A stretch of DNA of 64,000 nt, taken from Acinetobacter piscicola. GTDB taxonomy: Bacteria > Pseudomonadota > Gammaproteobacteria > Pseudomonadales > Moraxellaceae. Positions 171 through 32,695 of this stretch are shown here, one piece after another. The notes beneath the pieces were generated by a model. The model ran no database searches. It was not told the DNA's origin and worked only from the letters and a program-made list of their open reading frames with translations. The stretch covers positions 3,720,001-3,784,000 of the forward strand of contig NZ_CP048659.1 in assembly GCF_015218165.1 (NCBI RefSeq), written 5' to 3'. The translations under genes and the position numbers were made by a program. Within the stretch, counting starts at the first letter, position 1. Each line of letters starts with the position of its first letter.

Positions 171-252
171 AACGTCCACATTTTATCCAATTTTGCTGTT
201 CTATTATTTTAATTTTGTTTGATTATTATTTAACCTAAAAAGCTTCAATTCA

Positions 253-639
253 CTATATTTCTGAGAGCTCATACAAGAAATCTGAAACTTTTTGTGCAAG
301 AATTTCATGATCATCCTGACTTTCAACAATATCCACCATTAAATCATCAAGCCCTGTATTATCTTGAATACTAACGCCTTGAATTTCAAGAAAAGTAAGC
401 ATTACAGCAAGGCCTGTGCGTTTATTCCCATCAACAAATGCATGTCCTTTTGATATTGCAATACCGTACCAAGCTGCTATTTCATAAAGATCATCAACCT
501 GATTGTAATACATTTGTTGATCAATTCTGCTTAACACGCTTTCTAATTTATCAAGATGACACCCCTCTCGACCAACTCCTGTTTGCCTCAAAATTTCATC
601 ATGAACAGCGATTACAAATGTCGAATTGATGGTACTCAT
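253..639 (-). CDS. doc: Doc-type death-on-curing toxin (Fic fold)
   Basis: This 128-residue protein carries HAFVDGNKRT at residues 66–75, the Doc version of the Fic motif in which NKR replaces the usual NGR. Doc enzymes of this type phosphorylate EF-Tu and stop translation; the cellular role here is inferred from the family. Length and the all-helical composition fit Doc. The ATG overlaps the stop of the upstream gene (ATGA), so the two are translationally coupled, as usual for a toxin–antitoxin pair. It sits at the extreme left end of the island and probably helps to keep it in the population. Confidence 0.88.
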   Translation of the reverse strand: MSTINSTFVIAVHDEILRQTGVGREGCHLDKLESVLSRIDQQMYYNQVDDLYEIAAWYGIAISKGHAFVDGNKRTGLAVMLTFLEIQGVSIQDNTGLDDLMVDIVESQDDHEILAQKVSDFLYELSEI

Positions 640-815
640 TTATAAGCTAACTCTTGAATTTCTTTCTTATGTTGTTGAATGACACGTTTTGCACTATGCA
701 TTACAACACGCTTTGTTGCCTCGTTGTCATCAAACGGAATTGATAATAGTTGACCAGCCATTGCTGAACGTGGCTTTCTATTTTCAATTTTAAAATCACT
801 TAAACGTTTAGTCAT
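636..815 (-). CDS. Antitoxin of the Doc pair
   Basis: A 59-residue, strongly basic and helical protein lies immediately upstream of the Doc gene and overlaps it by 4 bases. By position it is the antitoxin. I start it at the ATG at 815, which has a strong AGGAAGAGG ribosome site just upstream; an in-frame start 11 codons earlier lacks one. The sequence does not obviously show the Phd/YefM DNA-binding fold, so the assignment rests mainly on gene order and size. Confidence 0.7.
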   Translation of the reverse strand: MTKRLSDFKIENRKPRSAMAGQLLSIPFDDNEATKRVVMHSAKRVIQQHKKEIQELAYK

Positions 816-879
816 AGTCCTCTTCCTATCAGGTGTTTCTATATACATTCATTTTAACATTGAATAGACTAACCGACAC

Positions 880-2892
880 TCATTTCACAAAGTCTTGGTA
901 ATCTAACTCAAACAAAGCAAGCATAGCTTGCTCGTGCTTTTCGATCTGTGTTGTGCTCCAGTCACCTTTTTTTTCAAGCAATTGAATCATCAAATACAAT
1001 TTAAGGGTATCAATTTTACCCTTCCTTATCTCAGGCATAAAATAATCACGTTTAGCACTTGGCAAGCGATTCCCTATGCTTGAATTTTTACTTGAACTAA
1101 TGAGACATAAGTTCCCAAAGCGATGTAAATTTTCATCATCTAATTTATCACGCTCTCCCTCTATCTGTTGTGCATAAAAATGCTCAACCGAACTCCGTTG
1201 CGTAAATTTAAAGTTTTTGATTACCTTATCATTGCTATTTTCTGCATCACAATAAATCAAAAAATCCAAATAGTTAAAGACAAAATTATTTTCAATATTG
1301 CCAAAGCTTAGTTTGGATTGATCAATTTTAAAATCATCAATTGTCTGATTGCCATAAATCAAATCAAAATAATCGATCTGTTTTTCATTTAGATACCGCT
1401 GAAAAATAAACTTTCTCGCTAAATGTTGTAATGCATTAAAATAGTCAGACACAGATTTATCTTTATTTTGATAAAGCCAATACAGTGCACCATTTAACCA
1501 ATATTTATAAGACAAGGTGGGCGTGGATACATGAAATGCTGTCATCAATAAGAGAACTCTTTGAGCAATATCAGTATTATTTACCTCAAAAGTATTCACA
1601 TAAGAACCTGTATTTTCATATCGTTTAAGTTTTTTTATGCTCCAATCATCATGATCCGTAGAATAATCCCGTTTAACAATGTATTGATCAAATATAAATT
1701 TGCACTTAAGCAAGCTAAACATAAAACCTTTTACATTCTCAATAACCCTTTCATGCTCTTGGTTTTCCTGCCCTTTTAACAAGATATATTTTTCAAATTG
1801 ATCAATCAGTTGCTTATCATCCAATGCCACTTTTTCATTACGATCAGTTTGATTTAGCCAAATTTGTAAAACCTGTAATAAAAAATTTGGAAAATTAATA
1901 ATGCTATTGAATCGTTCAGGCTTTTCTTCGCTTTGATCTAGATTTTTAATGTTGTTAGGAGGAATAGTTAGCATATCCAAAATTCTTAATTTAGATTCGT
2001 TTTGTTGATGAGGCTGAACTAAATTATCTGCATAGTTTTTCTGTAATTCTGAAAAATCATTAGGAACAAAATCACCCCAATCCTTTCCAAAAATCACATC
2101 ACGCTGTGTTGTTGAAAAACCATATTGAACGTAACGCTCCATATTGGCAGTCGCGTCCCAAATACTCGTAAATAGTGTCAGGCTTGATGTTTTATCTGCT
2201 TCATCTTTGATTTGATTCAATACGCTCATCAATTGCGCTTTTAAAATTTCATGCTTTTCTAATTGTTCACCACGGTTATTCATAACCTCAAAATAATGAT
2301 TGAGATCAGTATCTTTCGGAACTAAAACTTGTGTGATGACTACATTTTCAAATAAATATTTGCAAAAAACACTCAAGTCACCCTGTTTGATGATTTTTTG
2401 AATTGCACGTTGTAGCAACTCAAACCCCTGAACTAAATCCGCGTTATATTCGGATGATTTTAAATGTTGTAGATGATCGCCTCTAAGTAAAGCCTGAAAG
2501 GTTAAAGAAGACTTTGGACGACTTTCAAAATCAAGATTGAATTGATTAAACCAAGACATATCAAGAACAATTTTTTCTTCTTTGGATAATCGTTTCAGGC
2601 AAATCGCTAACAAGGTTAAAGTGGTAAATCGTTGCTGACCATCGATAATTTCATAAGTACCTTTGCTACGCTCAAAAACAACCAACGTTCCAATATAATA
2701 TTTTTTACTTCCTTGAGTCTGCCCTTGATTTAACTGTTCAGGTTGCTTTTGATAATCTTGAATATCCAAAATTAACTGATCAATTTCTTTCTCACCCCAA
2801 GCATAATTACGCTGATACATGGGGATAATATAAGTCTGTTTATTCTCAAACAGGGCTTGAACCTTAAGCGCTTGGATTGACTCATTTTTCAT
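880..2892 (-). CDS. DUF262/DUF1524 (GmrSD-type) nuclease, 670 aa
   Basis: The N-terminus shows the DUF262 hallmarks: YQRNYAW at residues 26–32 and IIDGQQR at 82–88, a ParB-like NTPase fold. Near the C-terminus (about 566–618) SVEHFYAQQ, then HRFGNLCLIS and an SIGNR stretch, match the order of a DUF1524 His-Me finger (HNH) nuclease. GmrSD proteins of this architecture are type IV enzymes that cut modified phage DNA. It is the last of four same-strand genes (PP2C, FtsK-gamma-like, two DUF262), with only 13 bases separating it from the previous one. The pairing with a shorter DUF262 protein suggests they act together; which DNA is the target is unknown. Confidence 0.85.
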   Translation of the reverse strand: MKNESIQALKVQALFENKQTYIIPMYQRNYAWGEKEIDQLILDIQDYQKQPEQLNQGQTQGSKKYYIGTLVVFERSKGTYEIIDGQQRFTTLTLLAICLKRLSKEEKIVLDMSWFNQFNLDFESRPKSSLTFQALLRGDHLQHLKSSEYNADLVQGFELLQRAIQKIIKQGDLSVFCKYLFENVVITQVLVPKDTDLNHYFEVMNNRGEQLEKHEILKAQLMSVLNQIKDEADKTSSLTLFTSIWDATANMERYVQYGFSTTQRDVIFGKDWGDFVPNDFSELQKNYADNLVQPHQQNESKLRILDMLTIPPNNIKNLDQSEEKPERFNSIINFPNFLLQVLQIWLNQTDRNEKVALDDKQLIDQFEKYILLKGQENQEHERVIENVKGFMFSLLKCKFIFDQYIVKRDYSTDHDDWSIKKLKRYENTGSYVNTFEVNNTDIAQRVLLLMTAFHVSTPTLSYKYWLNGALYWLYQNKDKSVSDYFNALQHLARKFIFQRYLNEKQIDYFDLIYGNQTIDDFKIDQSKLSFGNIENNFVFNYLDFLIYCDAENSNDKVIKNFKFTQRSSVEHFYAQQIEGERDKLDDENLHRFGNLCLISSSKNSSIGNRLPSAKRDYFMPEIRKGKIDTLKLYLMIQLLEKKGDWSTTQIEKHEQAMLALFELDYQDFVK

Positions 2893-2905
2893 TCTGATCT
2901 TCCTG

Positions 2906-4315
2906 TTAGAGATAATTTAGTTCTTTAAATAATTCAACTAAAGGCACAACATTAGTGCCTTGCTGTTTATCGACTATGGGGAGCGACCATCCGATGAGTT
3001 CACTTGGTGATTGAGCATATTTCAGTAAACTGAATATGTTCTTTTCTAAGACATAATTATCTATCGTTGCCAATTGCACCGAATATTGACTAATGCGACA
3101 GCGATATGCCCAAATAAAAATCTTTTCAATCGCTTCAGATAACCGATCTGTAGCAAATTTATCGATATAAAAAATCAATGCAGAATCAAACAAGGTTCGC
3201 ACATAACGATCCCCATCCCTATTTCTTGCATCATATGAATTCAATATTTTGATAATTCTATTCGCTCGATCCTGTAGTGTCGCACCAAATATAGAAATCT
3301 TCTCAGACTGATCTTGATGATCCACTACTTTACTGATCTGTTTTTCATAGAGCTCAACCATTTCAAAAAATCGACGACCGTTAATGATCATTTGATCAAG
3401 CTGAAATGGGAAACTCATTTCTTGTCGATCTATTTGCCGTTGATATTGTGCGTTATAGTCATCAATAAAATAATGCGCTATGCGTAATGGTTCTAAATAT
3501 GGATGATGGTCTGATTGCCCAAGATGAATACCTTTAAAAAGATGCACATGATCTTTATTGAAAAATCTTGCGGACTTTCCTCTTGACCAAAGACGAATAC
3601 GGAATAGATAGTTCGAAAATAACTTTGCCAAATGAGCCGAGTCTAAACTTTCCCAATAAGCAACAGTTTCAGCTTTTAAGTGTTGTTCCTGCGCAGAAAA
3701 TTCTCGTAGATGATAAGCTTTTAAAAGATCATGCGGTTCTAAATCACGGCCACGTGCATTTTGTGAATCAAAAAACTGAAATGCCTCTGAAACATCATCT
3801 AAAATAAAAACCGCAACCTGACAATTATTGAGTAAAAAATCAATATCTTGTTCCGAAAAGTTTACTGAAACGATCCTTTTAGCGACATTAAAGTTCTGAT
3901 AAATATTGTAATGGCTAATATCACTATTAAATTTTTGCTTGCTCATGAAAGCATCAATTTTCTCCGATATTTCATTTAAATCTTCGTTTAGATGCTCTTG
4001 TTTTAAATCTAATTCTGGCTTCTGAATAATCGCCCAAACAAGCAGCATTAAAGTTAAAGTTCGTTGCTGTCCATCCACAATATCTATATTTTCATCACTA
4101 TCACTATTTGGGTTACGATGTAATACGATCGTACCTAGTCGATAAGCAGATTTATCATGATGCTCTTGTATGTCGTTAACGAGAGCATTTAAATTCTTTT
4201 CCGTCCACTTATACGGACGTTGGTAATGAGGAATAACCAAATGATCTAAACTTAATAGCAATTTTTTTAATGACCAAATCCCTGTTTTCAGTTGATCAAC
4301 TTGATGCTGAGCCAT
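2906..4315 (-). CDS. DUF262 protein without nuclease domain, 469 aa
   Basis: YQRPYKW at residues 31–37 and IVDGQQR at 79–85 place this in DUF262. Unlike its neighbour, the C-terminal third shows no recognisable HNH/DUF1524 motif, and the protein is about 200 residues shorter. It may be an NTPase or specificity partner of the downstream DUF262/DUF1524 protein, like the split GmrS/GmrD arrangement (inference). The 41-base gap to the FtsK-gamma-like gene and the 13-base gap to the nuclease indicate one operon. Confidence 0.82.
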   Translation of the reverse strand: MAQHQVDQLKTGIWSLKKLLLSLDHLVIPHYQRPYKWTEKNLNALVNDIQEHHDKSAYRLGTIVLHRNPNSDSDENIDIVDGQQRTLTLMLLVWAIIQKPELDLKQEHLNEDLNEISEKIDAFMSKQKFNSDISHYNIYQNFNVAKRIVSVNFSEQDIDFLLNNCQVAVFILDDVSEAFQFFDSQNARGRDLEPHDLLKAYHLREFSAQEQHLKAETVAYWESLDSAHLAKLFSNYLFRIRLWSRGKSARFFNKDHVHLFKGIHLGQSDHHPYLEPLRIAHYFIDDYNAQYQRQIDRQEMSFPFQLDQMIINGRRFFEMVELYEKQISKVVDHQDQSEKISIFGATLQDRANRIIKILNSYDARNRDGDRYVRTLFDSALIFYIDKFATDRLSEAIEKIFIWAYRCRISQYSVQLATIDNYVLEKNIFSLLKYAQSPSELIGWSLPIVDKQQGTNVVPLVELFKELNYL

Positions 4316-4356
4316 AAAAGATTATCCTAAAAATAAATTTTTTATTGTTAAAGTTG

Positions 4357-4569
4357 TTATTTCATACCTTGATGCAATTTATAGCCATACCCATAATCTA
4401 GAACAAAAGTTTTTGTAGATTCACAAATATTTGCTTCAATTAACTGGCTAAGTAGCTGTTCTGAATGAGAATACCCAATTAAAAAATGGCGTTGTAAACT
4501 CGATACAGAAACGACACCCACTTCCTCTGTGAATAATTTGGCACGTTCAAAAAGATCATCTGATTGCAT
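4357..4569 (-). CDS. Stand-alone FtsK gamma-like winged-helix protein
   Basis: The whole 70-residue protein resembles the gamma domain of FtsK/SpoIIIE. It has a DDLFERAKLFTEEVG opening, then SSLQRHFLIGYSHSEQLLSQ, close in pattern to the FtsK LQRRFRIGYNRAARL recognition helix, and a final LIEANI. In FtsK this domain reads KOPS sequences and touches XerD. Here there is no motor domain attached, so the protein may serve as a DNA-reading subunit for the flanking DUF262 enzymes (inference). It lies between the PP2C gene and the DUF262 gene in a tight same-strand cluster. Confidence 0.75.
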   Translation of the reverse strand: MQSDDLFERAKLFTEEVGVVSVSSLQRHFLIGYSHSEQLLSQLIEANICESTKTFVLDYGYGYKLHQGMK

Positions 4570-4590
4570 AATTTCCCCATTCTCAATGAA

Positions 4591-5352
4591 TTAAATTTTT
4601 GCTCGTACTAAGACCATACTGACATTGTCATACGCCTGTTTTGAATCTAATGACGCTTTCATATTGAGTAACCATGTTCGAAGCTCCATATCTGCTTTTA
4701 AAGGAAGCCATTCCCCACACTCCATCACATCATGCACACCATCGGTACAAACCAATAAGGCATCATTCTCAGTCAAATATTCTTCTGTTTTTGTAAAATC
4801 CATCACTTCATGCAAGGGATCAGCACAAAAGTATTGTAATAATGCACCATAAATACTGGCGTAGTTTTCTCCTGCTCTTAGCTCGCCACTTTCTCTTAAC
4901 TGTTCAAGATAATTGTGATCTCTAGTCAGGCAATGCCACTTTTGATCATGTTGGCTAAACAAATAAACTCGACTATCGCCAAGATGTTGAATGGTCACAA
5001 AACTTTGATCGCCATCATTTTGAATGAATGCGAGTGTTGAACTTGCGCCAAAACTATTTTTCTGATGTGCTAATTGATCAACAAGATACTGCTGAATGGT
5101 AAATGCTTGACAAGGTTCTATCTTTTTATTTTGCATTAAAGCTTTTAAGACCGTATAGGATGCTTGCTCAGCTGCTGGACTATTGCTAATCCCATCCGCT
5201 ACAGCAACACACCACTGTTCTTTGTCAGAATGGCTATATAGTTTAGTGATGAGTCCATCATGTTGAATAACTTTATTTTCAATCAAAATGGCATCTTGTT
5301 GGCACTTTGACCTTGCCTTCCATGTCAGACCTTGCATTTCAAAAGTACTCAT
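4591..5352 (-). CDS. PP2C-family protein serine/threonine phosphatase
   Basis: Motifs appear in PP2C order: VAVADGISNSPAAEQ, HLGDSRVYLF, LLVCTDGVHDVM and a final YDNVSMVLVRA. The Asp residues in ADG, GDSR, TDG and YDN are the metal ligands of the PPM/PP2C fold. The protein is about 253 residues from the ATG at 5352; the frame stays open upstream to a TTG at 5412 with no clear ribosome site. It is the first gene of the cluster with the FtsK-gamma-like and DUF262 genes. No protein kinase is visible nearby, so its substrate may be a host protein or one of its neighbours. It could set the on/off state of the system (inference). Confidence 0.87.
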   Translation of the reverse strand: MSTFEMQGLTWKARSKCQQDAILIENKVIQHDGLITKLYSHSDKEQWCVAVADGISNSPAAEQASYTVLKALMQNKKIEPCQAFTIQQYLVDQLAHQKNSFGASSTLAFIQNDGDQSFVTIQHLGDSRVYLFSQHDQKWHCLTRDHNYLEQLRESGELRAGENYASIYGALLQYFCADPLHEVMDFTKTEEYLTENDALLVCTDGVHDVMECGEWLPLKADMELRTWLLNMKASLDSKQAYDNVSMVLVRAKI

Positions 5353-5539
5353 CACACCGATCTCATACTTGATAGTGATTTTCTTTTTATCAAAATCAGA
5401 TAACACAATCAAGAGAAATTTTATTTAAATTATTGATTAATAATAAATTATTTATTAAAAAACTTACTTTACGCTTTTTAATTCTCATTCATGTCTAACT
5501 ATTTAAGTAAAAATGTAACAAAATATTTTTCAAGCTAAA

Positions 5540-6547
5540 TCATGATTTAAGACGATACCTTTGCTTCGGACTCTTCGGCTTATCAGGAATGGTACGTTTA
5601 ATCAAACCAGCTTCTATGGCAGGGTTCAAGTAATTCTTCTGAAAAGTAGCTCGATGGTTTAAACCCACCAATTGCATCAACTCAGCCAAAGTGTATTCTT
5701 CTTGTTTCATTGCCGAAATTAAACGCTGAACTTGGTCGCTCACTTGAGCGGTAGCATGATCGCTATCTTGAGCGGTATCAGTAGAACTCAGAATGGCATC
5801 TAAAATCATCTGTAAGATGAATTCTATAAATGGGGCTGAGTCTGTTCGGTCAGTGCTAGCTTGCAAAGCCTCATAGTAGGCTTTTTGGTTTTGATAGATC
5901 AGGCTCTCAACAGGGATATTAACAAAGATTGGATTCCATCGACTCAAGATCAATGTTTGCCATAGTCTCCCCATCCGACCATTGCCATCTGCAAATGGAT
6001 GAATAAATTCAAACTCATAATGGAATACTGAGCTTTGAATCAGTGGATGCACATCACTGTCATTCAACCAATCGAGCAAATCAACCATCAAGCGGTTGAT
6101 CTGATTCGCAGCTGGAGCCATATGCACCACTCGATCACCTGACATTACGCCGACACCACCATGACGATACTGACCGATTTCATCGATCAAACCTGTCATT
6201 AAAATTTGATGCGCTTGTAATAAGTCGGCTTCTTGACTTGGTTGCCACTGCTGAAAGGCTTCATAGGCTTTGATAGCGTTACGTACTTCCTGAACTTCTT
6301 TCGGAGGTGCAATTACGGTTTTACCATTAAGTATCGCCGTGATTTGTTCTGTACTAAGGGTATTGCCTTCAATCGCAAGCGACCCTTGAATGGTACGGAT
6401 ACGATTGGCTTTGCGTAATTTCAGACTATCTTGAATTTCCTCTAAAACAGTCAAACGCCCTACATTCTCACTGATCTGTGCAATCAGATGAATGATTTTA
6501 GAGGTGATGGTATAAGGCGGTTGGTATTTCATTATTAGCTTACTCAA
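5540..6547 (-). CDS. Fic-domain AMP transferase with self-inhibitory helix
   Basis: HPFADGNGR at residues 183–191 is the full catalytic motif HPFx[D/E]GNGR of Fic enzymes, which attach AMP to target proteins. SLAIEGN at 56–62 matches the N-terminal inhibitory motif [S/T]xxxE[G/N], making it a class II Fic with built-in autoinhibition. The last 60–70 residues look like a winged helix that reads DNA, a common ending of these 330–380-residue proteins. It is a single gene with AT-rich gaps on both sides. It is not clearly part of the neighbouring operons. Confidence 0.88.
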   Translation of the reverse strand: MSKLIMKYQPPYTITSKIIHLIAQISENVGRLTVLEEIQDSLKLRKANRIRTIQGSLAIEGNTLSTEQITAILNGKTVIAPPKEVQEVRNAIKAYEAFQQWQPSQEADLLQAHQILMTGLIDEIGQYRHGGVGVMSGDRVVHMAPAANQINRLMVDLLDWLNDSDVHPLIQSSVFHYEFEFIHPFADGNGRMGRLWQTLILSRWNPIFVNIPVESLIYQNQKAYYEALQASTDRTDSAPFIEFILQMILDAILSSTDTAQDSDHATAQVSDQVQRLISAMKQEEYTLAELMQLVGLNHRATFQKNYLNPAIEAGLIKRTIPDKPKSPKQRYRLKS

Positions 6548-7073
6548 CTAACCTTATGACTTAATCTAAAAACTATTTTTAAAACTAGCACATTCAATTA
6601 GCTTATAAATAAATTAAAAATATTGGTTCTAAATTTTTAAACCAATCTCTTGAAAAAAAGTATTCATATCGATACAACGAACCCCAAAATCATAAGCAAT
6701 ATCAGGAACTTTAGGGTGTTGCGTAGGTTGATTTTTATTTAAACTAATATTTTTAACTTCACTTGTTACAATCACTAAATTATCTTTTTTTGCAATTGCG
6801 ATCAGCCATCCATCTGCTATTTTTTCATGTGTCCAACTTTTGTCATTTGTTAAGGCTTTCTCACTATAACAATCATGTGTTGCAATATGTTGAATAACTT
6901 CACCCCATAAATCAGCATAGTCTTTGTATCTACAAGAAGCTCCTGTAAAGTGTTCTTCAAGCCATTTTTTAAAACGTTCATCTTGATAATGTTCATTAAC
7001 AACAATATCTGGAAGTACTACTTGTGAATTGATGATCACTTTAATTTTCTCCCAAAAACTTGGAAAAAAATCA

Positions 7074-7076
7074 AAT
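7074..7076. repeat. Target-site duplication AAT, left
   Basis: AAT is present once at the rejoined PIN-gene target and twice around the IS (7074–7076 and 8385–8387), as expected for a simple insertion of an IS3-family element with a 3-base duplication. Confidence 0.8.
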
Positions 7077-7114
7077 TGAACCGTACCGGGTTTGTCGGAG
7101 ACTTTTTATTTAAG

Positions 7115-8017
7115 TTAGGCCACGTGACCTAACGGGTTAATCTTATCATAGTACATTGCTTCAAACTCAAAAGGCGATACATAACCCAATGCGCTGTGTA
7201 CACGCTTTTTGTTGAACCAATCTACCCAATTTAATGTCGCAAGTTGTACATCCGCTAAACCTTGCCAGTCTGCTTTTAAATATTCAATCACCTCTGTTTT
7301 GTATAAGCCATTCACTGTTTCAGCCAAAGCGTTATCGTATGAATCACCGGTCGTACCGACTGATGCTCGTAAATTTGCTGCTTCTAAACGATTGGTATAG
7401 CGAATGGAAAGATATTGAACCCCTCTGTCACTATGGTGAATCACATTCTTTGGCATGTCTCGAGCATGTAACGCTTGCTCAAGTGCATCGAGCACCATAT
7501 CTGTATTCATCCGTGTCGATACTTTCCATCCAACAATTGCTCGTGAGAAGACATCAATAATAAATGCAGTATAAACCCAACCTGAATTTGTTTGAATATA
7601 CGTGAAGTCAGCGACCCATAGCTGGTCAGGATGATCAGCACTAAAATTGCGTTTCACCAAGTCATCTGCTCGTTTTTGATCCTCTCGGCTACGGGTAGTT
7701 TGTTTATTCTTACCACGCCAAACACCTTGTATACCTAGTTTTTGCATCAATCGAGCAACTGTACAGCGAGCAATAACATAGCCTTCACGTTTCAATTTTT
7801 GCCAAACTTTACGCACACCATATCGACCTGAACTTTCCTTCCAAATTCGTTTAATTTGTTCAGCATGATGCAAGTCATGTAGATCTCGCTTTGCTCGATG
7901 TTCTGGGTTTTCAACGAAATCTAGTGTTCGATAATAGGTAGAAGCCGCGATCGGTAAAATCCTGCAAATCGCCTCAACACCATATAACGCCTTATTGTTA
8001 TGGATGAAATCTACCAT
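7115..8017 (-). CDS. IS3-family transposase OrfB (DDE catalytic part), copy 1
   Basis: This 300-residue protein has the rve/IS3 OrfB layout: an HTH_21-like region (GRYGVRKVWQKL), then WVADFTYI with the first catalytic Asp, HHSDRGVQY with the second, and DNALAETVNGLYKTE with the Glu. Its ATG overlaps the OrfA stop. The frame is open upstream of that ATG for 11 codons (RPGGARPPTQI), so a −1 shift at GCTTTTTTC in orfA would produce a fused OrfAB, the active transposase of this family. Confidence 0.94.
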   Translation of the reverse strand: MVDFIHNNKALYGVEAICRILPIAASTYYRTLDFVENPEHRAKRDLHDLHHAEQIKRIWKESSGRYGVRKVWQKLKREGYVIARCTVARLMQKLGIQGVWRGKNKQTTRSREDQKRADDLVKRNFSADHPDQLWVADFTYIQTNSGWVYTAFIIDVFSRAIVGWKVSTRMNTDMVLDALEQALHARDMPKNVIHHSDRGVQYLSIRYTNRLEAANLRASVGTTGDSYDNALAETVNGLYKTEVIEYLKADWQGLADVQLATLNWVDWFNKKRVHSALGYVSPFEFEAMYYDKINPLGHVA

Positions 8018-8334
8018 TATTTGTGTGGGCGGTCGAGCTCCGCCTGGGCGAAAAAAGCGGCTGCTTTACGTAGAATTTCGTTAGCACGTTGCAGTTCTTT
8101 ATTTTCACGTTCGAGTTGTTTAATACGTTCTTGATCTGAAAGTTGCTGTACTTTAATTGGGTTTTGTTTATCTAAATATTTTTGATACCAAACACGTAGA
8201 GTTTCAGGAGTACAACCTATCTTGGGAGCAATAGCGGTGATCGCAGCCCAATTCGATGGATAATCTTTCTCGGATTCAATCAATAATTCAACCGCTCTTT
8301 CTCTGATTTCAGGGGTATATTTTACTTTTTTCAT
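8017..8334 (-). CDS. IS3-family transposase OrfA, copy 1
   Basis: This 105-residue HTH_Tnp_1 protein starts MKKVKYTPEIRERAVELL, has a helix-turn-helix around AIAPKIGCTPETLRVWYQ, and a leucine-zipper-like LERENKELQRANEIL segment before the end. It binds the element's ends and multimerises. The slippery run GCTTTTTTC lies near its 3' end. The protein is identical to copy 2. Confidence 0.94.
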   Translation of the reverse strand: MKKVKYTPEIRERAVELLIESEKDYPSNWAAITAIAPKIGCTPETLRVWYQKYLDKQNPIKVQQLSDQERIKQLERENKELQRANEILRKAAAFFAQAELDRPHK

Positions 8335-8438
8335 CGGGACATTCTCTCAGAAAGCTTGGTCTCCGACAAACCCGGTACGGTTCAAATTGATAATATCTTT
8401 CATAAAAGTTGATATAAATATTAGTGTCCAATAAATAC

Positions 8439-9545
8439 TTAGTCATTGCCACCTCTATTCATCAAAATTTTATATCCTTTAAAACCAACACCTACAATAT
8501 TAAATGCATCTGTATATGAGATACGATCATGATTTACTGCATTCATTACATATTTAAAAAATCTATTATCGACCCTAAATCTAATGTTATTTGTATAACT
8601 TCCACCATTAGATTCACTTGGTAAAAAACGTTCAAGACTTTCCTTTAGGTCTCTAGTTCTACTCTGGTATTCTTCGCGTGTTATTTTATTTAAGTCCAAT
8701 AGTCTTCTAATAATTACAAATTCACTGACTTTAAATTTTCTAGCTAAAAAATTACTATCTGTTGAATTAGACTGTAAGAAAATCTCTTGGGGAACTAAAA
8801 TTTCTGCTGTTACTTTATTTATAAATGCTTCAGTTCGATCAAATTGATAATCACCAGCATCTACAATATTAAATATTTCTTCAGTACCTACAAAAATATG
8901 CACTAACTCATGTACTAATGTAAAAAGTTGCCCAGTCTTAGTATCCTTTTGATTAATAAAAATTATAGGGGCTTTATGGTCAAGTAATACAAAACCTCGG
9001 AATTCCTTCACACTAAGAGGACGATGTGTATTGTCTTTCACTTTACCATTAAAAAAAACAAATACACCAATATCATTAATCTTATCACGTAGATAGTTTA
9101 ATGGATTATCAGCCTGATTCTGAAAAAACAAAGGAATTTCTAGCTTATTACGTATTTTTTGAGCCACCTCTAGAAAATTGGAATCAATAGAAAATTGACC
9201 TACAAAATCTAAATTGTCAGTAATTTCATTCTTCAAAAATTCCTGTTTGATTTCCATTTCTGCAATGGTGTCTCTTAACTCTTCACTTGCTTCATCGATT
9301 GAATCTGACTCAAGTGTCCTGAAGTCCAATCGCTTGATGTCAATATCAATAGTTTTATTCAGTAATAAAAGACCCGTTGGAACATTAATCTTTTTTGCTA
9401 TTTCAGATAACTGATTAAAAGTTGGCTGTTTTTCTCCACTTAAAAATTGATCTAAATTATTAATTTTCGTTCTTAAAACACTCAAAGAAATTTGGGCATT
9501 TTGAACATAATAATTCAATGTGTTGGTGTCGATATGCATTGACAT
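8439..9545 (-). CDS. ImmA/IrrE-type metallopeptidase with N-terminal helix-turn-helix
   Basis: A zinc-peptidase motif HELVH occurs in TLVHELVHIFVGTEE, preceded by an XRE-like region (LDQFLSGEKQPTFNQLSEI) near the N-terminus. Proteins of this build next to DUF4411 PIN genes act as their regulator or antitoxin. I chose the ATG at 9545, which has GAGGAGGG just upstream; the frame extends 12 codons further. The gene ends 8 bases inside the start of the PIN gene. Since the toxin is broken, this partner is now an orphan. Confidence 0.85.
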   Translation of the reverse strand: MSMHIDTNTLNYYVQNAQISLSVLRTKINNLDQFLSGEKQPTFNQLSEIAKKINVPTGLLLLNKTIDIDIKRLDFRTLESDSIDEASEELRDTIAEMEIKQEFLKNEITDNLDFVGQFSIDSNFLEVAQKIRNKLEIPLFFQNQADNPLNYLRDKINDIGVFVFFNGKVKDNTHRPLSVKEFRGFVLLDHKAPIIFINQKDTKTGQLFTLVHELVHIFVGTEEIFNIVDAGDYQFDRTEAFINKVTAEILVPQEIFLQSNSTDSNFLARKFKVSEFVIIRRLLDLNKITREEYQSRTRDLKESLERFLPSESNGGSYTNNIRFRVDNRFFKYVMNAVNHDRISYTDAFNIVGVGFKGYKILMNRGGND

Positions 9546-9665
9546 TACATTCCCTCCTCTATGCCCATTTGACCTTGTCATATGCTAACATAAATTAACT
9601 GTGCAATACTGTCTATAAACATTAACAACAGCACGGCACAATTTGACGTGAAATTTTAAATAGAA

Positions 9666-12600
9666 CTATTTTGAAACCTTCTTTTTCGTCCGTGTATAAA
9701 TATGCTTAGCCAATCGCTTAGCAACCTTTTTACGCAATTCATCCGTACTCATTACCTTATTACAGACTTCCTCATTTCCTGCAAGTCGAACAAGAAACAG
9801 ATCAATTAACTTTCCAGATAAATACTCTGTAAAACTATCTAGAGAGTTTGCATTCACCGCTTGTACGATCTCTTCATTTTCAATAGCTGCTTGCTCAACC
9901 TGATCAAAGAACAATTGATCAGCTACTGTAAAATCAGTGCCAAAAGCTTCATTCAATTCATCAATCAGATGCGATACATTATCTGTAGACTCTGCCTGCC
10001 CTGTTCCCACATCCGTTGAACCTTTCAAGGCATTCGCTTCACCATGCCCTAAATCGATACTATTTTCACTTAACTTCTGTAGTCGATAAAATTGAAGTTC
10101 AACAATTTTTGATAAATCAACTTCATTTTCTTTAGAGCCTTTAGGTAACTTTTGTAGTAATGCTTTTAAATACGCATAGCGTTGCTCATGCTCAGAATCT
10201 GTAAAATCCATGATTTGCGAGACAAACAGATATAAATTCAAATAGCTTTGTAATTGGCTTTTAAATAGTTTTTGTTGCTCTTGTTGATGCACAAGATCAT
10301 CAGGATGAATTTTCTTATATTTATCAACAGCACGATCAATAATACTATTCAACTGCTTATGTTCATGCCCCGTTAGCTTGCTTCGATCCTTAAACCAAAT
10401 GTTGGCAAACTCATTTAAATCAGCATCAAAGTAAAACTTCCATTGATCCAACGTATGACCAAGCTCATTCAACTTTTGCTCATTTGGAATATCACCAAGT
10501 TTTGTCAGCTCGTAAAATGGCTTAAATGCTTTATAAATATCTTCATGGGTATTCACAAAATCCAATACAAAAGTATCTTCTTTACCATAAGCACAACGGT
10601 TTAGACGAGATAAGGTTTGTACTGCTTGGATTCCTGATAACTTCTTATCTACAAACATGGTGTGTAGTAAGGGCTGGTCAAATCCTGTTTGATATTTTTC
10701 AGCAACCAAGAGTACTTGATAATCATCAGTATCAAATTGATCTGGAAGCTCAGTTTCTTTAAAACCATTCATTTTAGGTTCTGTATATTCAGTACCATCA
10801 ACCTCTAGTTTTCCAGAAAATGCGACTAAGGATTTAATTCCTGTATACTTTTTTTCTTTAATATATTCATCAAATGCGAGTTTATAGCGTACTGCTTGCT
10901 CACGAGAATTCGTAACAACCATAGCTTTGGCACGACCACCAATTCGATGCATCGTCACAGTTCTAAAATGCTCGACAATGATTTCTACTTTCTGAGCAAT
11001 CACGCTTGGATGCATGGAAACAAAACGAGCCATTAAGGCTTTAGTTTTATTTTTTGCAAGTTCTGGATCATTGTCAGCAATTTTGATTAATTTATAGTAT
11101 TGCCCATAAGTCGTGTAGTTTGCCAGCACATCTAAAATAAAGCCTTCTTGAACCGCCTGCTTCATACTGTAATGATGAAATGGAGCTTCTCCGTTATCAC
11201 CTGCTTCATCAAAGCAAGCGAGTGTTTTCCATTTGGGTGTAGCAGTAAAGGCAAAGAAACTTAAGTTAGGTTGGCGACTACGCTTTGACGCTTCTGCAAA
11301 TAAATGCTTTTTCACGTCATCGGTCAGTTCGCTTTCATCCTCATCGCCATCATCTAAAAACTCTTGAGCAATTGCAGATTCAATCCCATCCTTATTTAGA
11401 ATTTTACGCAATTCCATTGCAGTTTCACCACTTTGTGAACTGTGGGCTTCATCGACAATAACAGCAAAATTCTTACCTTCTGTACTTAAATCAACCTTAA
11501 TGCCTTTTTTCGCTTGAGTACGAATAGACTGCATGATGTATGGGAATTTTTGGATTGTGGTAATAATGATTGGTACATTTGAAGCTAAGGCATTGGTGAG
11601 CTGTAAGGTATTTTCATCAATCTTTTGAACCACACCATCTTTATGCTCAAACTGTGCAATGGTTTCTTGTAACTGTCGATCAAGTACAATACGGTCAGTA
11701 ATCACAATAATGGAATTAAAAATTTTCTGATCATCTGCATTATGCATCGATGCCAATTGGTGTGCGAGCCAAGCAATAGTATTTGATTTGCCTGAGCCTG
11801 CTGAGTGTTGAATTAAGTAATTATGACCTGAACCATTGGCTTTACTGTGTTTCGTTAATTTACGCACAGCATCTAATTGATGGTAACGTGGGAAAATCAT
11901 GGTTTCTTTTTCGATGTATCGAAAACCAGTTTCAGTTCTAATTTTTTTGGTTTCTACACTCAAATGCATGTATCGCGCAAAGATTTCCATAAAGCTATGA
12001 CGAGCTAAAGTTTCTGTCCACAGGTAATGCGTGCGTACATCACCTTCTACAGGTGGATTACCCTTACCATTTAAATAACCTTTGTTGAAAGGTAGAAAAA
12101 ATGTATTTTCCCCATCCAACTTGGTGGTCATATAGACGTCACAGGTATCTACAGCAAAATGAACTAAGGTACGTTTTTTAAAATCGAATAAACGTCCTTT
12201 TGCATTGCGATCTTTTTTAAATTGAATTTTGGCATCTTCAACATTCCAACCCGATGCTGAAAACTCATTTTTAAGCTCAAGCGTAATCAGTGGAATCCCA
12301 TTGAGTGAAAGCACCATATCTGGAATTTCATTAAATTCTGTATGAAGCTGACGTGTACATTTGAGTACGTTAGCATCGTATTGTTCTTGGGTGGTTTTAT
12401 TGATACTGGTATTGGGTGCAAAGTATGCCATTTTGATTTTTTTACCAAAGCATTTAAAGCCTTGGCGTAAAACCGATAATGCGCCTTCAGTATCTAAGGC
12501 ATGTGCCAAATCATTGACAATACGAGTTTCTGTTTCATCTTTACATGAGTTATGGATTTTTTCCCAAGTTTTTGGTTGCGTTTCCTGAATAAAGGCAACG

Positions 12601-12719
12601 ACATCCTTAGGAAATAAAGCAATTCTTGGGTCATAGTCTTTCGGGTTGCCTTTTACATAACCACCAGCCGTTGTTAAGCTTTGCTCGATGGCTTGTTCAA
12701 AATAATATTCGCTATGCAT
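9666..12719 (-). CDS. hsdR: Type I restriction endonuclease subunit R
   Basis: This 1017-residue protein has the HsdR layout. A PD-(D/E)xK nuclease is seen as IPDMVLSLNGIPLITLELK (residues 132–150). Helicase motifs follow: Walker A SAGSGKSN (306–313), DEAH at 423–426, FFAFTATP, and LSRLNRCAYGKEDTFVLDF in the second helicase domain. It translocates DNA by ATP hydrolysis and cuts unmodified DNA far from the recognition site. It is the last gene of the hsd operon, 36 bases after hsdS. Confidence 0.95.
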   Translation of the reverse strand: MHSEYYFEQAIEQSLTTAGGYVKGNPKDYDPRIALFPKDVVAFIQETQPKTWEKIHNSCKDETETRIVNDLAHALDTEGALSVLRQGFKCFGKKIKMAYFAPNTSINKTTQEQYDANVLKCTRQLHTEFNEIPDMVLSLNGIPLITLELKNEFSASGWNVEDAKIQFKKDRNAKGRLFDFKKRTLVHFAVDTCDVYMTTKLDGENTFFLPFNKGYLNGKGNPPVEGDVRTHYLWTETLARHSFMEIFARYMHLSVETKKIRTETGFRYIEKETMIFPRYHQLDAVRKLTKHSKANGSGHNYLIQHSAGSGKSNTIAWLAHQLASMHNADDQKIFNSIIVITDRIVLDRQLQETIAQFEHKDGVVQKIDENTLQLTNALASNVPIIITTIQKFPYIMQSIRTQAKKGIKVDLSTEGKNFAVIVDEAHSSQSGETAMELRKILNKDGIESAIAQEFLDDGDEDESELTDDVKKHLFAEASKRSRQPNLSFFAFTATPKWKTLACFDEAGDNGEAPFHHYSMKQAVQEGFILDVLANYTTYGQYYKLIKIADNDPELAKNKTKALMARFVSMHPSVIAQKVEIIVEHFRTVTMHRIGGRAKAMVVTNSREQAVRYKLAFDEYIKEKKYTGIKSLVAFSGKLEVDGTEYTEPKMNGFKETELPDQFDTDDYQVLLVAEKYQTGFDQPLLHTMFVDKKLSGIQAVQTLSRLNRCAYGKEDTFVLDFVNTHEDIYKAFKPFYELTKLGDIPNEQKLNELGHTLDQWKFYFDADLNEFANIWFKDRSKLTGHEHKQLNSIIDRAVDKYKKIHPDDLVHQQEQQKLFKSQLQSYLNLYLFVSQIMDFTDSEHEQRYAYLKALLQKLPKGSKENEVDLSKIVELQFYRLQKLSENSIDLGHGEANALKGSTDVGTGQAESTDNVSHLIDELNEAFGTDFTVADQLFFDQVEQAAIENEEIVQAVNANSLDSFTEYLSGKLIDLFLVRLAGNEEVCNKVMSTDELRKKVAKRLAKHIYTRTKKKVSK

Positions 12720-12755
12720 GGCATTTCCCCCAAAAAAATATGACCCAATGATTTT

Positions 12756-14084
12756 TTAGTTTAGTTTAAGATTTCGAACATCGATTTTCCCTGTCACCAC
12801 TTGCGTGATTAAGGTTGAGCGATATTCCCTTAAGACCTGAATAGTTTGATGTACTTTATCAACCATACCATCAATGTCGTGAACTCCTTCGGCAATAAAG
12901 TTTGAGATAAACTCCTGCTCTTCTAGAGGAGGCACAGCAACTTTCAAATATGATAACCTTTCAGCTTTGATACCAATAGCAGTCGATCCACTTGAATAGG
13001 TGTACAAACTATCCTGAAAAGATCTAGAAAGCATAAAGTACTTTAAGAATGTATTATTAATAACGTCTTTTTTTCCTCTAAACTTGATAATTCGCTGAGC
13101 TAAAGCTATATCAGTTTTATCAATCTGAGCAATCTCACCTAAAGGTGCTTCGGTTGTTAATAATACATCTCCAATTTCTGGTAAACCTCTAGACATAATA
13201 TCTAAGTACAAATCTTCTTCGACATATTCTTTAGATAACGAATAGTCGATAAAACCATTTTTAATATTTCTCGCTGTTACTAAAAAAACACCCTGTTCGA
13301 CTTTTTCAGGAGTCTTACCACGATAATCAACAATAGAAGCTAATGACTTCTTAAGCCCCATTATTTTCCAATGTTTAGGAATATCACCTATCCATTTAAT
13401 TCCTGTTTTTTTCATCTCTACAGTAGGATTTAAGCCCTTTGTCACCGCATGAGAAATCAAAGCCACTCGTTGTTCAGCCAATTTTTCCAATAGAGTTTCT
13501 TGCTTGGCAATTAAAGCATCAACTTGGGCAAGGCGTTTATCTAAAAAATCTGCAATGAATTTTTGTTCTGATAATGGTAATTCAACAATCGGCAATCGGA
13601 CTAAATCAGTTGAATTAATAGCGGGATAACTTACGCCAACAGAATTCGCGACAATATTTCCCACCATACCTTCTGACTGAATCCAATAACCAATGAATTT
13701 TGAGTCGAACTTTTCTGAAGGTCGAAGCACTGCAAATCCTGTTGAGGCAATTAAATTTTCCTCAGCAGATTCAACATAAGTGATCGCCTTTAGATAAGTA
13801 CGAACAGTAGAAACTAGCACATCACCACTTTTAACCACTCGTCTAGCTCGTGATGGTGCATTTTCAAATAAGAGTTCTTCTTTATGCTTAATACCTTCAG
13901 TCAAAGAAACACTGGAAATGTCAACATATAGAATTTCATAATCTAGCTCAGTGTTCTCACCTAAAGCTTCATCATTGCAAGTGACAGCAAATTTTAATTG
14001 CTTAACATTCCAATGGTTAGGGATTTCCCCTAACCATTGCACGCCACTATCCTTATAACTTTCGTAACGTGGTAACTGGCTCAT
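12756..14084 (-). CDS. hsdS: Type I restriction-modification specificity subunit S
   Basis: The 442-residue protein has two target-recognition halves, each opening with a matching repeat: SGVQWLGEIPNHW near the N-terminus and TGIKWIGDIPKHW in the middle. Each half ends in a coiled region (FLDKRLAQVDALIAKQETLL and the VREYR-type helix near the C-terminus). It determines the bipartite DNA site for both methylation and restriction. Its start overlaps the end of hsdM (ATGA), confirming an operon. Confidence 0.95.
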   Translation of the reverse strand: MSQLPRYESYKDSGVQWLGEIPNHWNVKQLKFAVTCNDEALGENTELDYEILYVDISSVSLTEGIKHKEELLFENAPSRARRVVKSGDVLVSTVRTYLKAITYVESAEENLIASTGFAVLRPSEKFDSKFIGYWIQSEGMVGNIVANSVGVSYPAINSTDLVRLPIVELPLSEQKFIADFLDKRLAQVDALIAKQETLLEKLAEQRVALISHAVTKGLNPTVEMKKTGIKWIGDIPKHWKIMGLKKSLASIVDYRGKTPEKVEQGVFLVTARNIKNGFIDYSLSKEYVEEDLYLDIMSRGLPEIGDVLLTTEAPLGEIAQIDKTDIALAQRIIKFRGKKDVINNTFLKYFMLSRSFQDSLYTYSSGSTAIGIKAERLSYLKVAVPPLEEQEFISNFIAEGVHDIDGMVDKVHQTIQVLREYRSTLITQVVTGKIDVRNLKLN

Positions 14085-16324: not shown

Positions 16325-16346
16325 TTCTCCAATTCAAAAATTCGGT

Positions 16347-16940
16347 TTATTGCGCCACTTTGGCTTGCACTAAAATTTGTTCGCTCTTCGCTTGATTGTA
16401 TTCGGCTCTTAAAGCTGTCAATTGTTTGAATATTAAAGCTTCATTGTGTGCTTCTTCGGCAAGTCGAAGAATCTCTTCTTGTTGAAACATAGAAGGAATA
16501 ACTATTTCAGCTTCTTTTAAGGTCGAAATACTAAGCATCATGAGCAATGACCCTCGACTATTCATTTCAAAATAAGATCGCATTGCTTGTGAATGGTTAA
16601 AGTACCAAGCTAAAAATTCGGGTTTTATGTTATCAACATTCAAATTCACAACGATAAATTGATTACTCACAGCAACCTGATCCACTTGCTGACCTTTGAA
16701 CACATATGCTCTTGGTTCCCCACGAGCAACCACAATGAGTGAATTATGCTTTAAATATTGTGGCTTCGAATCATAAGACCACTCAAGATCAACCAGTTGA
16801 TCATCTAAAATAATGACTTGTTCCTTGGTTAAATCCTTAATTTGAATCGTTTTTAAATCAAAAGCATTTACTGATTTTTCAGGGGGGCGTTGCGTAAATC
16901 CTGTATAAATCTCAGCAATATTTTTTAATTTCGTCTCCAT
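16347..16940 (-). CDS. Single-domain HsdS-like specificity protein
   Basis: The 197-residue protein has one target-recognition domain (opening KNIAEIYTGFTQRPPE; STLKEAEIVIPSMFQQEEI near its end) followed by one helical spacer, i.e. half an HsdS. It is 22 bases upstream of hsdM with AAAGGAAAG before its ATG. Half-S proteins can dimerise to form a symmetric specificity subunit, or exchange with a full-length S. Its presence alongside a complete hsdS in the same operon is unusual. Confidence 0.82.
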   Translation of the reverse strand: METKLKNIAEIYTGFTQRPPEKSVNAFDLKTIQIKDLTKEQVIILDDQLVDLEWSYDSKPQYLKHNSLIVVARGEPRAYVFKGQQVDQVAVSNQFIVVNLNVDNIKPEFLAWYFNHSQAMRSYFEMNSRGSLLMMLSISTLKEAEIVIPSMFQQEEILRLAEEAHNEALIFKQLTALRAEYNQAKSEQILVQAKVAQ

Positions 16941-19126: not shown

Positions 19127-19216
19127 AAATCCCCCAATAAATAATTTAAATCCAAGATATTCCACTTGATTTATTAGTTTTTCAAATAAATATAAAATAT
19201 TCTTGACATGCAAAAG

Positions 19217-21570: not shown

Positions 21571-21692
21571 CTCGTCCCCCTTTGCGGTAGAACGGGAGGG
21601 GGACGCGTTCGCGCGTGCTGGTTCTGTATGTCCAGTCTGTCAACCCCCTTTCGTTCTGCCACCATAATCAATTGACAGTGATTTGGTAGAAC
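21571..21692. repeat. GC-rich hairpin cluster with repeated GGTAGAAC
   Basis: CGTCCCCCT (21573–21581) pairs perfectly with AGGGGGACG (21597–21605). Overlapping its right arm, ACGCG-TTCG-CGCGT (21603–21616) forms a second hairpin with a TTCG loop. GGTAGAAC occurs at 21586–21593, in the loop of the first hairpin, and again at 21685–21692; its near-inverse GTTCTGCC is at 21653–21660. The block is much richer in GC than its surroundings. It could be a structured RNA, a regulatory region or a replication/transfer origin; the sequence alone does not decide. Confidence 0.55.
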
Positions 21693-32395: not shown

Positions 32396-32695
32396 ATGCA
32401 AAATACACTAATTAAAACTTCTGATTACTTATTCATGCAATTCAGAACATTAACACCATCATTAGAGCAAGTCTGTAATGTATATTACCCACACCTTAGC
32501 AAAGCTAAAATATTAGAGAAAGCCCGTAATATGGAATTTCCATTCGTATGCTTTAAAATAGATGATAGCCAAAAATCACCATATTTTGTTGATATTATTG
32601 AATTAAGCTATCTACTTGAAGAAAAATACAGTGCCAGTCTTACTGACTTCAATAAATTCATGCAATCAGTGTTAAAGCATCATTCAGGCTCATAA
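32396..32695 (+). CDS. PrtN-family transcriptional activator
   Basis: The 99-residue protein follows the pyocin activator PrtN pattern: TSDYLFMQFRTLTPSLEQVC, then VYYPHLSKAKILEKA, then FKIDDSQKSPYFVDIIEL and a final helix. PrtN proteins switch on phage-type genes after DNA damage; in many Acinetobacter islands such a gene sits beside the integrase and may act as an excision or activation regulator (inference). Its 3' end overlaps the end of the converging integrase gene by 38 bases. Confidence 0.8.
   Translation: MQNTLIKTSDYLFMQFRTLTPSLEQVCNVYYPHLSKAKILEKARNMEFPFVCFKIDDSQKSPYFVDIIELSYLLEEKYSASLTDFNKFMQSVLKHHSGS

Follow-up and report, generated by a model that had tools for sequence, protein, structure and literature searches.

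Type IV restriction enzymes of the family that includes GmrSD, BrxU and SspE are built from DUF262 and DUF1524 domains (PMC10952713), and the accessible part of a study of that family shows no linked protein phosphatase (PMC4619093). Phosphatases of the PP2C type have been described in other arrangements, namely the TerY-P triad, in which a TerY protein with a VWA domain, a Ser/Thr kinase and a PP2C are joined to restriction systems that include the McrBC-type CoCoNuTs (PMC11090510, PMC4978471), and KKP (PfkA-PfkB-PfpC), in which a PP2C is accompanied by two kinases, bearing CSD and FHA domains (PMC11341870). Immune operons are also known to be placed under small controllers such as the WYL protein CapW and the CapK/CapS unit, the latter being found ahead of diverse immune operons (PMC13373217, in whose main text PP2C is not a term). 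The subject of the present report is a stretch of 64,000 nucleotides from Acinetobacter piscicola (assembly GCF_015218165.1, contig NZ_CP048659.1, positions 3,720,001 to 3,784,000; hereafter 'the window'), near one end of which a PP2C gene and a gene for a free FtsK-gamma protein stand directly ahead of a pair of DUF262 genes. Comparison with other genomes demonstrated that PP2C and free FtsK-gamma constitute a separate, portable cassette found ahead of differing DNA-attacking effectors, and that the DUF262 pair is a widespread and independent two-gene unit.

The four-gene run and described systems

A preliminary description of the window, made from its letters, had proposed that four tightly packed minus-strand genes form a single defence operon comprising a PP2C phosphatase, the DNA-reading gamma domain of FtsK and two unequal DUF262 proteins. 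The genes are present where they had been placed (open reading frames 4591-5412, 4357-4569, 2906-4315 and 880-2892), and the gaps between them, estimated there at 13–41 bases, measure 21, 41 and 13 bases from 5412 to 880. The first gene of the cassette encodes a PP2C-family Ser/Thr phosphatase (Pfam PP2C_2, E 2.2e-6, and PP2C, E 3.9e-5; it also matches the Stp1-like family NF033484 at E 5.3e-18, yet below the family cut-off). Its start is uncertain: for most relatives the alignment sets in at the ATG at 5352, which would give a gene at 4591..5352, and a TTG at 5412 is the alternative. Its metal residues, listed as complete in the preliminary description, are conserved: an alignment of 64 relatives, the window's protein among them, shows the usual residue in no fewer than 59 at each of 13 metal or active sites. 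The second gene (4357..4569) encodes a free winged-helix protein of 70 residues with an FtsK_gamma domain (E 1.7e-9, above cut-off). The effector pair follows: a GmrS-like protein (2906..4315) with GmrSD_N (DUF262, PF03235; E 2.8e-31) and DUF7834 (E 3.9e-76), and a GmrSD-like nuclease (880..2892) with GmrSD_N (E 1.4e-32) and GmrSD_C (DUF1524, PF07510; E 2.9e-12). Pfam thereby confirmed that one DUF262 protein lacks a nuclease domain and that the other carries a DUF1524-type HNH. The motif DGQQR is present in both; NCBIfam gave a name to neither, and PADLOC returned only partial, general matches, for example to Orf5, HEC-06 and SspE.

With DUF262 and DGQQR in both proteins and a DUF1524 HNH in one, the pair resembles the GmrSD family, from which the locus differs in having two adjacent DUF262 proteins, one of them bearing DUF7834 and no HNH, and in having PP2C and FtsK-gamma in front. 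The linkage of a PP2C to varied DNA-restriction systems, McrBC relatives included, recalls TerY-P, and the presence of a PP2C in a defence setting recalls KKP, among whose neighbour domains DUF262 appears in a figure legend (PMC11341870, in the part accessible). However, a Pfam search of the nine genes at 253-9581 found no kinase and no VWA domain (the rest of the genome lying outside the VWA search), and the locus has a winged-helix protein that TerY-P lacks. Three PF00069 matches in the window's genome, two of them above cut-off, all lie outside the window, the best at C1:1418768. Furthermore, KKP is prophage-borne in over 90% of cases according to the accessible text (PMC11341870), whereas a search of 50,697 phage records at E 1e-10 gave nothing for the window PP2C. 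Membership of TerY-P or KKP was rejected, despite the presence of a PP2C, on the ground that the searches turned up neither a kinase nor a VWA protein linked to it.

The likeness to CapK/CapS, CapH/CapP and CapW is that of a small regulatory unit placed directly ahead of diverse immune operons, the immune role of the present effectors being taken from knowledge of their families; with CapK/CapS, the cassette further shares the pairing of a winged-helix protein, there a repressor, with an enzyme of phosphorylation. It differs from these controllers in having a phosphatase rather than a kinase, FtsK-gamma rather than a STAS-wHTH protein, and a non-palindromic, bipartite upstream element. The Pfam domains of PP2C and FtsK-gamma differ from those that published descriptions give for the Cap proteins, and the neighbour of PP2C in Psychrobacter-type cassettes is a WYL protein. 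The cassette is best read as analogous to CapK/CapS and to TerY-P while falling under the definition of neither. The preliminary description knew of no system of this composition, and a literature search of open-licence papers likewise found, among the matches listed, no published PP2C/FtsK-gamma or PP2C/type IV system. The cassette is real, modular and, as far as the literature was searched, undescribed; as a putative controller ahead of exchangeable effectors it is a variant on a known theme, and a categorically new switch is possible.

Two separable modules

The GmrS-like protein was used to scan a collection in which 84,980 species are represented by a single genome each (genome_contigs), and the scan yielded 415 stretches encoding a relative; the best 80 of these 415 loci were examined by single-sequence phmmer. 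An HNH-bearing DUF262 gene was found beside the GmrS-like gene in 79 of the 80 (by best label, and in pieces in a few), and locus L087 ends ahead of its HNH gene. Represented among these loci are Proteobacteria, Verrucomicrobia, Bacteroidota, Planctomycetota and one cyanobacterium. A relative of PP2C was present in six (L017-L019, L077, L084 and L085) and FtsK-gamma in three, all of them from Acinetobacter, both counts being lower bounds because the flanks of several loci are short. The idea of a single inseparable four-gene system was rejected, since each half is also found in the absence of the other: the DUF262 pair mostly lacks the other two genes, and PP2C with FtsK-gamma is portable. One part of the original four-gene proposal that endures is that the gene order recurs, in genomes G066, G079 and G109 and also in G155, where opposite-strand frames of 105 and 300 residues separate FtsK-gamma from GmrS (G-numbers denote the other genomes compared, G000 being the window's own; L-numbers denote fetched loci).

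Matches to FtsK-gamma (E <= 0.001) occur in 55 of 175 Acinetobacter genomes, most of them as a domain inside a long FtsK frame; short or fused frames are present in 13 (G000, G109, G066, G155, G079, G074, G025, G031, G003, G030, G064, G073 and G096). PP2C precedes FtsK-gamma at -14 to +21 bases in 12 of these 13 cassettes, the exception being G064, in which PP2C is broken and a 289-residue frame lies between the two (1,140 bases in all). PP2C itself was matched at 19 places in 16 of the 175 genomes, 13 of them with FtsK-gamma and six without it or undecided (G112; G032, truncated where its contig stops; G076; a further place in G096; and two pieces on a 10.9-kb contig of G096). In G076 (L176), PP2C has as its neighbour an Mrr-type restriction endonuclease gene of the opposite strand.

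What follows the cassette differs from genome to genome. The DUF262 pair is found in G000, G066, G079, G109 and G155; an McrB-like AAA_5 protein (E 2.5e-11) and McrC (McrBC, E 5.9e-30) in G074 and, by similarity, in G025; a 137-residue protein and then a PDDEXK_4 nuclease (E 7.3e-24) in G003 and, by similarity, in G064; and a PDDEXK_4 nuclease (E 2.1e-30) in G073. The G030 and G031 cassettes run into contig ends. In G096, FtsK-gamma forms the N-terminus of a 254-residue fusion protein, predicted with a mean pLDDT (predicted local distance difference test) of 92.4 over its whole length and with high confidence in the remainder; in this predicted structure, the part outside the gamma domain finds its counterparts among DNA glycosylases of the MUG/TDG/UDG superfamily (E 1.7e-4 for the best match, with a target TM-score of 0.60), the match to Pfam UDG being below cut-off (E 0.036). 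The same fusion of FtsK-gamma (PF09397) to a glycosylase-like part occurs in three protein clusters (P0214-P0216, of which P0214 is 95% identical to the G096 protein), and most other relatives of that part are without PF09397. DNA glycosylases that act on modified phage bases have reportedly been found to serve as defences. One such enzyme, Brig3, is described in the accessible part of a recent study (PMC13160076). GmrSD, McrBC and such glycosylases have a modified-DNA theme in common, which may unite the effector set.

In six Acinetobacter genomes (L131-L135 and L173), the PP2C gene comes directly after Maf and DUF2237 genes (tested with Pfam in L131 and by similarity in the others), and this site is a recurrent spot for PP2C cassettes. 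A phosphoglycerate kinase gene, tested in L131, lies beyond.

The FtsK-gamma protein

As modelled by AlphaFold2 (mean pLDDT 89.8), the window protein has a wing of two strands, at residues 49-56 and 60-65. Its best matches in the PDB, none of them with an E below 0.001, are 2j5p (E 0.011) and 2ve9 (E 0.012), both of which are FtsK gamma domains. The likeness to the FtsK gamma domain extends from the fold to a sequence core, VSVSSLQRKF. The cassette protein differs in standing alone, in the replacement of its wing and of the residues that read KOPS (FtsK-orienting polar sequences), and in being without a motor domain. In Escherichia coli FtsK, residues R1300, E1303 and E1306 contribute to KOPS reading, according to the accessible text of the structural account (PMC2680272). 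Among free or fused gammas (101 given, 97 parsed, many of them near-duplicates), residue 1300 is never R (Q in 73), residue 1306 is never E (I in 94) and residue 1303 is E in three; in the full-length FtsK proteins of the genus, R1300 is found in 17 of 17, residue 1303 is D, and residue 1306 is divided between E (11) and Q (6). The family assignment made in the preliminary description is thus correct, but DNA reading of the FtsK/KOPS type was rejected, the residues of the recognition helix having been replaced. Judged by its sequence, the free protein is most likely an FtsK-derived winged-helix protein that has been retargeted.

A comparison of the window with two cassettes of McrBC type located a breakpoint within this gene. 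DNA identity of 88.8% and 89.1% extends from position 6532, the start of an upstream Fic gene, to position 4421, where similarity ends; this corresponds to about codon 50 of FtsK-gamma, at which the wing begins in the model. The helix-turn-helix therefore appears to be constant with the cassette and the wing to go with the effector, and the protein clusters of FtsK-gamma fall into distinct tail types.

A shared element upstream of the cassette

Upstream of PP2C, amid intergenic DNA that is otherwise hardly alignable, the cassettes share a bipartite element, composed in the window of box A (AAATATTTTGTTAC; 5515..5528, minus strand, 14 of 14 bases) and, 22 bases from it, box B (RTGAAY-N8-AAAARYGTAAAG; 5467..5492, minus strand). 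A scan of the 175 Acinetobacter genomes found 14 perfect matches to box B, 12 of which sit 126-152 bases upstream of a PP2C gene with FtsK-gamma; the same pattern read backwards, as a control, gave none. Perfect matches accompany 12 of the 13 FtsK-gamma cassettes, the exception being G073. Two others lie outside known cassettes, in G027 and in G062, the latter within a 3-kb locus (L257) among whose listed frames no PP2C was recognised by eye. A blind motif search, given one cassette from each diverged group (G000, G031, G003, G073 and G096), recovered box B in all five, in decayed form in G073, with a score of 114.3 as against 80.8-92.6 in 20 shuffled sets searched with equal effort. Box A is present at 12 or more of 14 bases in 11 of the 12 elements, and the distantly related G031, G003 and G030 have all 14; in 2,000 shuffles of one region, nine reached 12 of 14 and none reached 13. 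The spacing of the boxes in those 11 elements is either 22 bases (eight) or 32 bases (three), values one helical turn apart, and the element as a whole has the opposite orientation in G003, G030 and G064.

In the Acinetobacter genomes scanned, none of the PP2C places that lack FtsK-gamma has an adjacent match to the element at up to one mismatch, from which it follows that the element accompanies FtsK-gamma. The element is a candidate operator, to which FtsK-gamma would bind. The 12-mer AAAAGCGTAAAG has four copies in the window's genome, the other three of them inside open frames. An Rfam structured RNA at the element was considered and rejected, in that positions 1-22000 of the window gave, at gathering score, only an ALIL pseudoknot (7943-8059) and a C4 antisense RNA (21580-21666). 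Operators of the host damage regulator UmuDAb have the core GTnAC and the half-site TGAA(N4)GTAAC, in the accessible part of the published account (PMC11332147); all 12 elements read GTAAAG in place of that core, and a canonical UmuDAb box was rejected.

PP2C cassettes beyond Acinetobacter

Relatives of the PP2C occur at 79 places in 67 of 348 Moraxellaceae genomes, and a subset of these places, amounting to 72 loci (17 from Acinetobacter and 55 from other genera, the window not among them), was fetched for study. A nuclease recognised by the profiles used lies within 6 kb, on either strand, in 12 of the 17 Acinetobacter loci (in L130 only as a 53-residue fragment) and in 35 of the 55 others. 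Within the same distance, FtsK-gamma is found in 12 of 17 Acinetobacter loci and in none of the 55, and a same-strand match to a WYL profile in none of the 17 and in 45 of the 55 (some of them fragments). In other Moraxellaceae, PP2Cs of this family have a WYL regulator as their partner, and the nucleases again vary. In L189, the WYL protein, confirmed by Pfam, is followed by a 225-residue protein, DUF1810, a 208-residue protein and a DUF262 pair; in other WYL loci, PDDEXK_4 or leucine-rich repeat (LRR) proteins lie downstream. The PP2C and WYL cassettes of loci L182-L231 display mixes of PDDEXK_4, the DUF262 pair, LRR proteins, DUF1810 and two families without a name, whose members have about 225 and 208 residues. 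In L178-L180, from a single other genus, PP2C comes after the DUF262 pair, and in two of these three loci it is broken.

The PDDEXK_4 nuclease, with the G073 protein as query, was located at 41 places in 35 of the 348 genomes; 25 of these lie within 8 kb of a PP2C, 0.2 being expected under uniform placement, and 16 do not. Among mobile elements, 72,556 plasmid records yielded nothing close in DNA to window positions 200-6600, FtsK-gamma was not matched in plasmids at E 1e-4, and PP2C was not matched by peptide patterns in viral_contigs; together with the search of phage records already described, these led to rejection of a phage or plasmid home for the unit. Three Acinetobacter plasmids carry a PP2C 40-44% identical to that of the window, and on two small Acinetobacter plasmids (L267 and L268; NZ_CP068191.1 and NZ_CP118895.1) a distant PP2C stands behind a hypothetical gene of about 120 residues.

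A possible control mechanism and its alternatives

Modular exchange of effectors, a shared element, a changed recognition helix and a conserved phosphatase site are properties of the cassettes themselves. The explanation we favour, and to which we would give about an even chance of being right, is that PP2C and the winged-helix FtsK-gamma together control the operon, and perhaps act on the effector too, as a unit exchangeable across DNA-attacking defences. From the sequences we infer operator binding, contact with the effector by the wing, a phosphatase substrate, a trigger and a role in phage defence. FtsK-gamma would bind the bipartite element some 140 bases upstream of the PP2C start and would thereby set expression of the whole operon; since its wing is matched to the downstream effector, the protein would probably also touch that effector. 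PP2C would keep FtsK-gamma or the effector dephosphorylated, counteracting a kinase whose gene lies elsewhere or belongs to the phage, and would in this way decide whether the nuclease is held back or released. That the phosphatase acts as a switch, as the preliminary description had suggested, is plausible.

Several observations weigh against this explanation. The element pattern was drawn from the sequences in which it was counted; seven of the 12 elements come from copies closely related in DNA (88.7-93.4% identity), which brings the independent groups down to about four; the form in G073 is decayed; and box A in G096 reaches 10 of 14 bases, a level attained by 15% of shuffles. At up to one mismatch, the pattern gives 59 matches and the backward control about 69, so that only perfect matches carry weight. 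The link between tail and effector draws on five genomes of DUF262 type and two of McrBC type only, and it is possible that a crossover merely happened at the start of the wing. As for the association with nucleases, 25 of the 72 PP2C loci have none recognised within 6 kb (among them, L194 has a diverged PDDEXK_4 that had been missed, E 3.6e-8, and several more stop short at the end of a contig), the distant PP2Cs of the two small plasmids have no annotated nuclease adjacent, and shared residence in defence islands would likewise raise the counts of co-location. No kinase was matched among the nine tested genes, and the fusion to a glycosylase suits an adaptor better than a pure regulator of transcription.

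That last point bears upon an alternative in which FtsK-gamma is a targeting or docking subunit that brings the nuclease or glycosylase to DNA, with PP2C licensing the complex. The in-frame fusion of FtsK-gamma to a glycosylase fold (in L134, and in the three clusters that likewise bear PF09397) and the variation of the wing with the effector speak for it, and to that extent the earlier suggestion that FtsK-gamma directs the effector retains some support; but 77 of the 80 DUF262 loci examined are without FtsK-gamma, a conserved cis element goes with FtsK-gamma, and in other Moraxellaceae the position after PP2C is taken by a WYL protein, a type of transcription factor. We regard this alternative as somewhat unlikely. 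Improbable, in our estimation, is a scheme in which PP2C is itself the phage sensor, as in KKP, so that a phage protein or kinase would shift the phosphatase balance and activate the effector, with FtsK-gamma as an accessory. PP2C is the part common to the cassettes, accompanied by FtsK-gamma in one genus and by WYL in others, and there is a precedent in the inhibition of the KKP phosphatase by a phage replication protein (PMC11341870, accessible part); against this, the two kinases of KKP were not found at the locus, the kinase matches of the genome lying elsewhere, and most of the loci entered the collection through a PP2C related to that of the window, so that its presence in them is by construction.

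The element might also belong to a host regulator, for example as a decayed UmuDAb/DdrR damage box, with PP2C and FtsK-gamma carried as passengers in a defence island. In G096 and G031, box B does resemble the UmuDAb half-site TGAA(N4)GTAAC (PMC11332147, accessible part), but the occurrence of GTAAAG in all 12 elements where UmuDAb has GTnAC, the association of perfect matches with the cassette rather than their spread across the genus, and an exchange of effectors with close adjacency that would not be expected of passengers make this quite improbable. Returning to control by PP2C and FtsK-gamma, a stronger version would make the cassette a new class of immune switch, in which FtsK-gamma, a DNA reader of chromosome segregation, has been freed from FtsK and retargeted to a private, direction-carrying bipartite site, where as a universal socket, with a wing exchanged to suit the following enzyme (DUF262 pair, McrBC, PDDEXK_4 or DNA glycosylase), it restrains that enzyme or its operon, the phosphatase sets the hold, and phage interference with phosphorylation releases the weapon; we consider this version unlikely.

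Neighbouring genes and other features of the window

The same-strand run extends downstream of the HNH gene, across a 31-base gap, to a gene for a 70-residue protein (636..848, minus strand; no Pfam family; a probable antitoxin by its position only), and then to a Doc-type toxin of the Fic family at the 3' end of the run (253..639, minus strand; Pfam Fic, E 7.4e-13; TIGR01550 DOC_P1 above cut-off), which overlaps it by four bases; the operon is possibly longer than four genes, continuing through 636-848 and Doc. The 70-residue gene is kept after the DUF262 pair in G066, G109 and G155 and is in pieces in G079, and no Doc match was found in the G155 or G079 loci (the loci of this group being L136, L137, L138 and L127). 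On the other side of the cassette lies a Fic-family gene (5540..6547, minus strand; Pfam Fic and Fic-like_C) that also stands ahead of PP2C in G155, G074 and G025 and, in pieces, in G109, and that moves with the cassette in some genomes. Decay is visible among the relatives, the HNH gene being split into two frames in G066 and Fic and Doc being in pieces in G109.

The preliminary description had placed the run among defence genes, and this holds. A type I restriction-modification operon at 9666-16940 encodes R, S and M subunits and a further S-like protein of 197 residues, and a second tandem DUF262 pair at 17186-21295 (675 residues, and 692 residues with DUF1524) has no PP2C or FtsK-gamma recognised adjacent to it in nine genes tested. 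The integrase to which that description assigned the island is of phage type and lies at 32658-33794, about 27 kb from the four-gene run; together with the C4 antisense RNA (66.8 bits) and genes of YqaJ, DUF932 and YagK/YfjJ type, it forms part of a satellite- or prophage-like stretch. Nearer the cassette, a DUF4411 gene (6629-8452) is apparently split by an insertion element at 7115-8334: the piece at 6629-7039 matches only positions 33-158 of the profile, and a 47-residue frame on the far side (8309-8452) looks like its start, adjoined by an M78 peptidase-type protein (8439-9581). The insertion element contains the ALIL pseudoknot (76 bits), a structure that points to the IS3 family.

Implications

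How cells protect themselves from their own nucleases against modified or foreign DNA is a question of current interest, and the reuse of one small cassette ahead of unrelated DNA-attacking enzymes points to a common solution to the problem of control, for which the cassette supplies both a defined candidate operator and a defined phosphatase. PP2C with FtsK-gamma, or PP2C with WYL, can in addition serve as bait for further effectors, and has already led to a family of PDDEXK_4 nucleases, to a glycosylase-like effector and, outside Acinetobacter, to LRR and DUF1810 proteins. The recurrence of the cassette ahead of such differing enzymes suggests that these bacteria may possess a reusable control switch for their anti-virus weapons.

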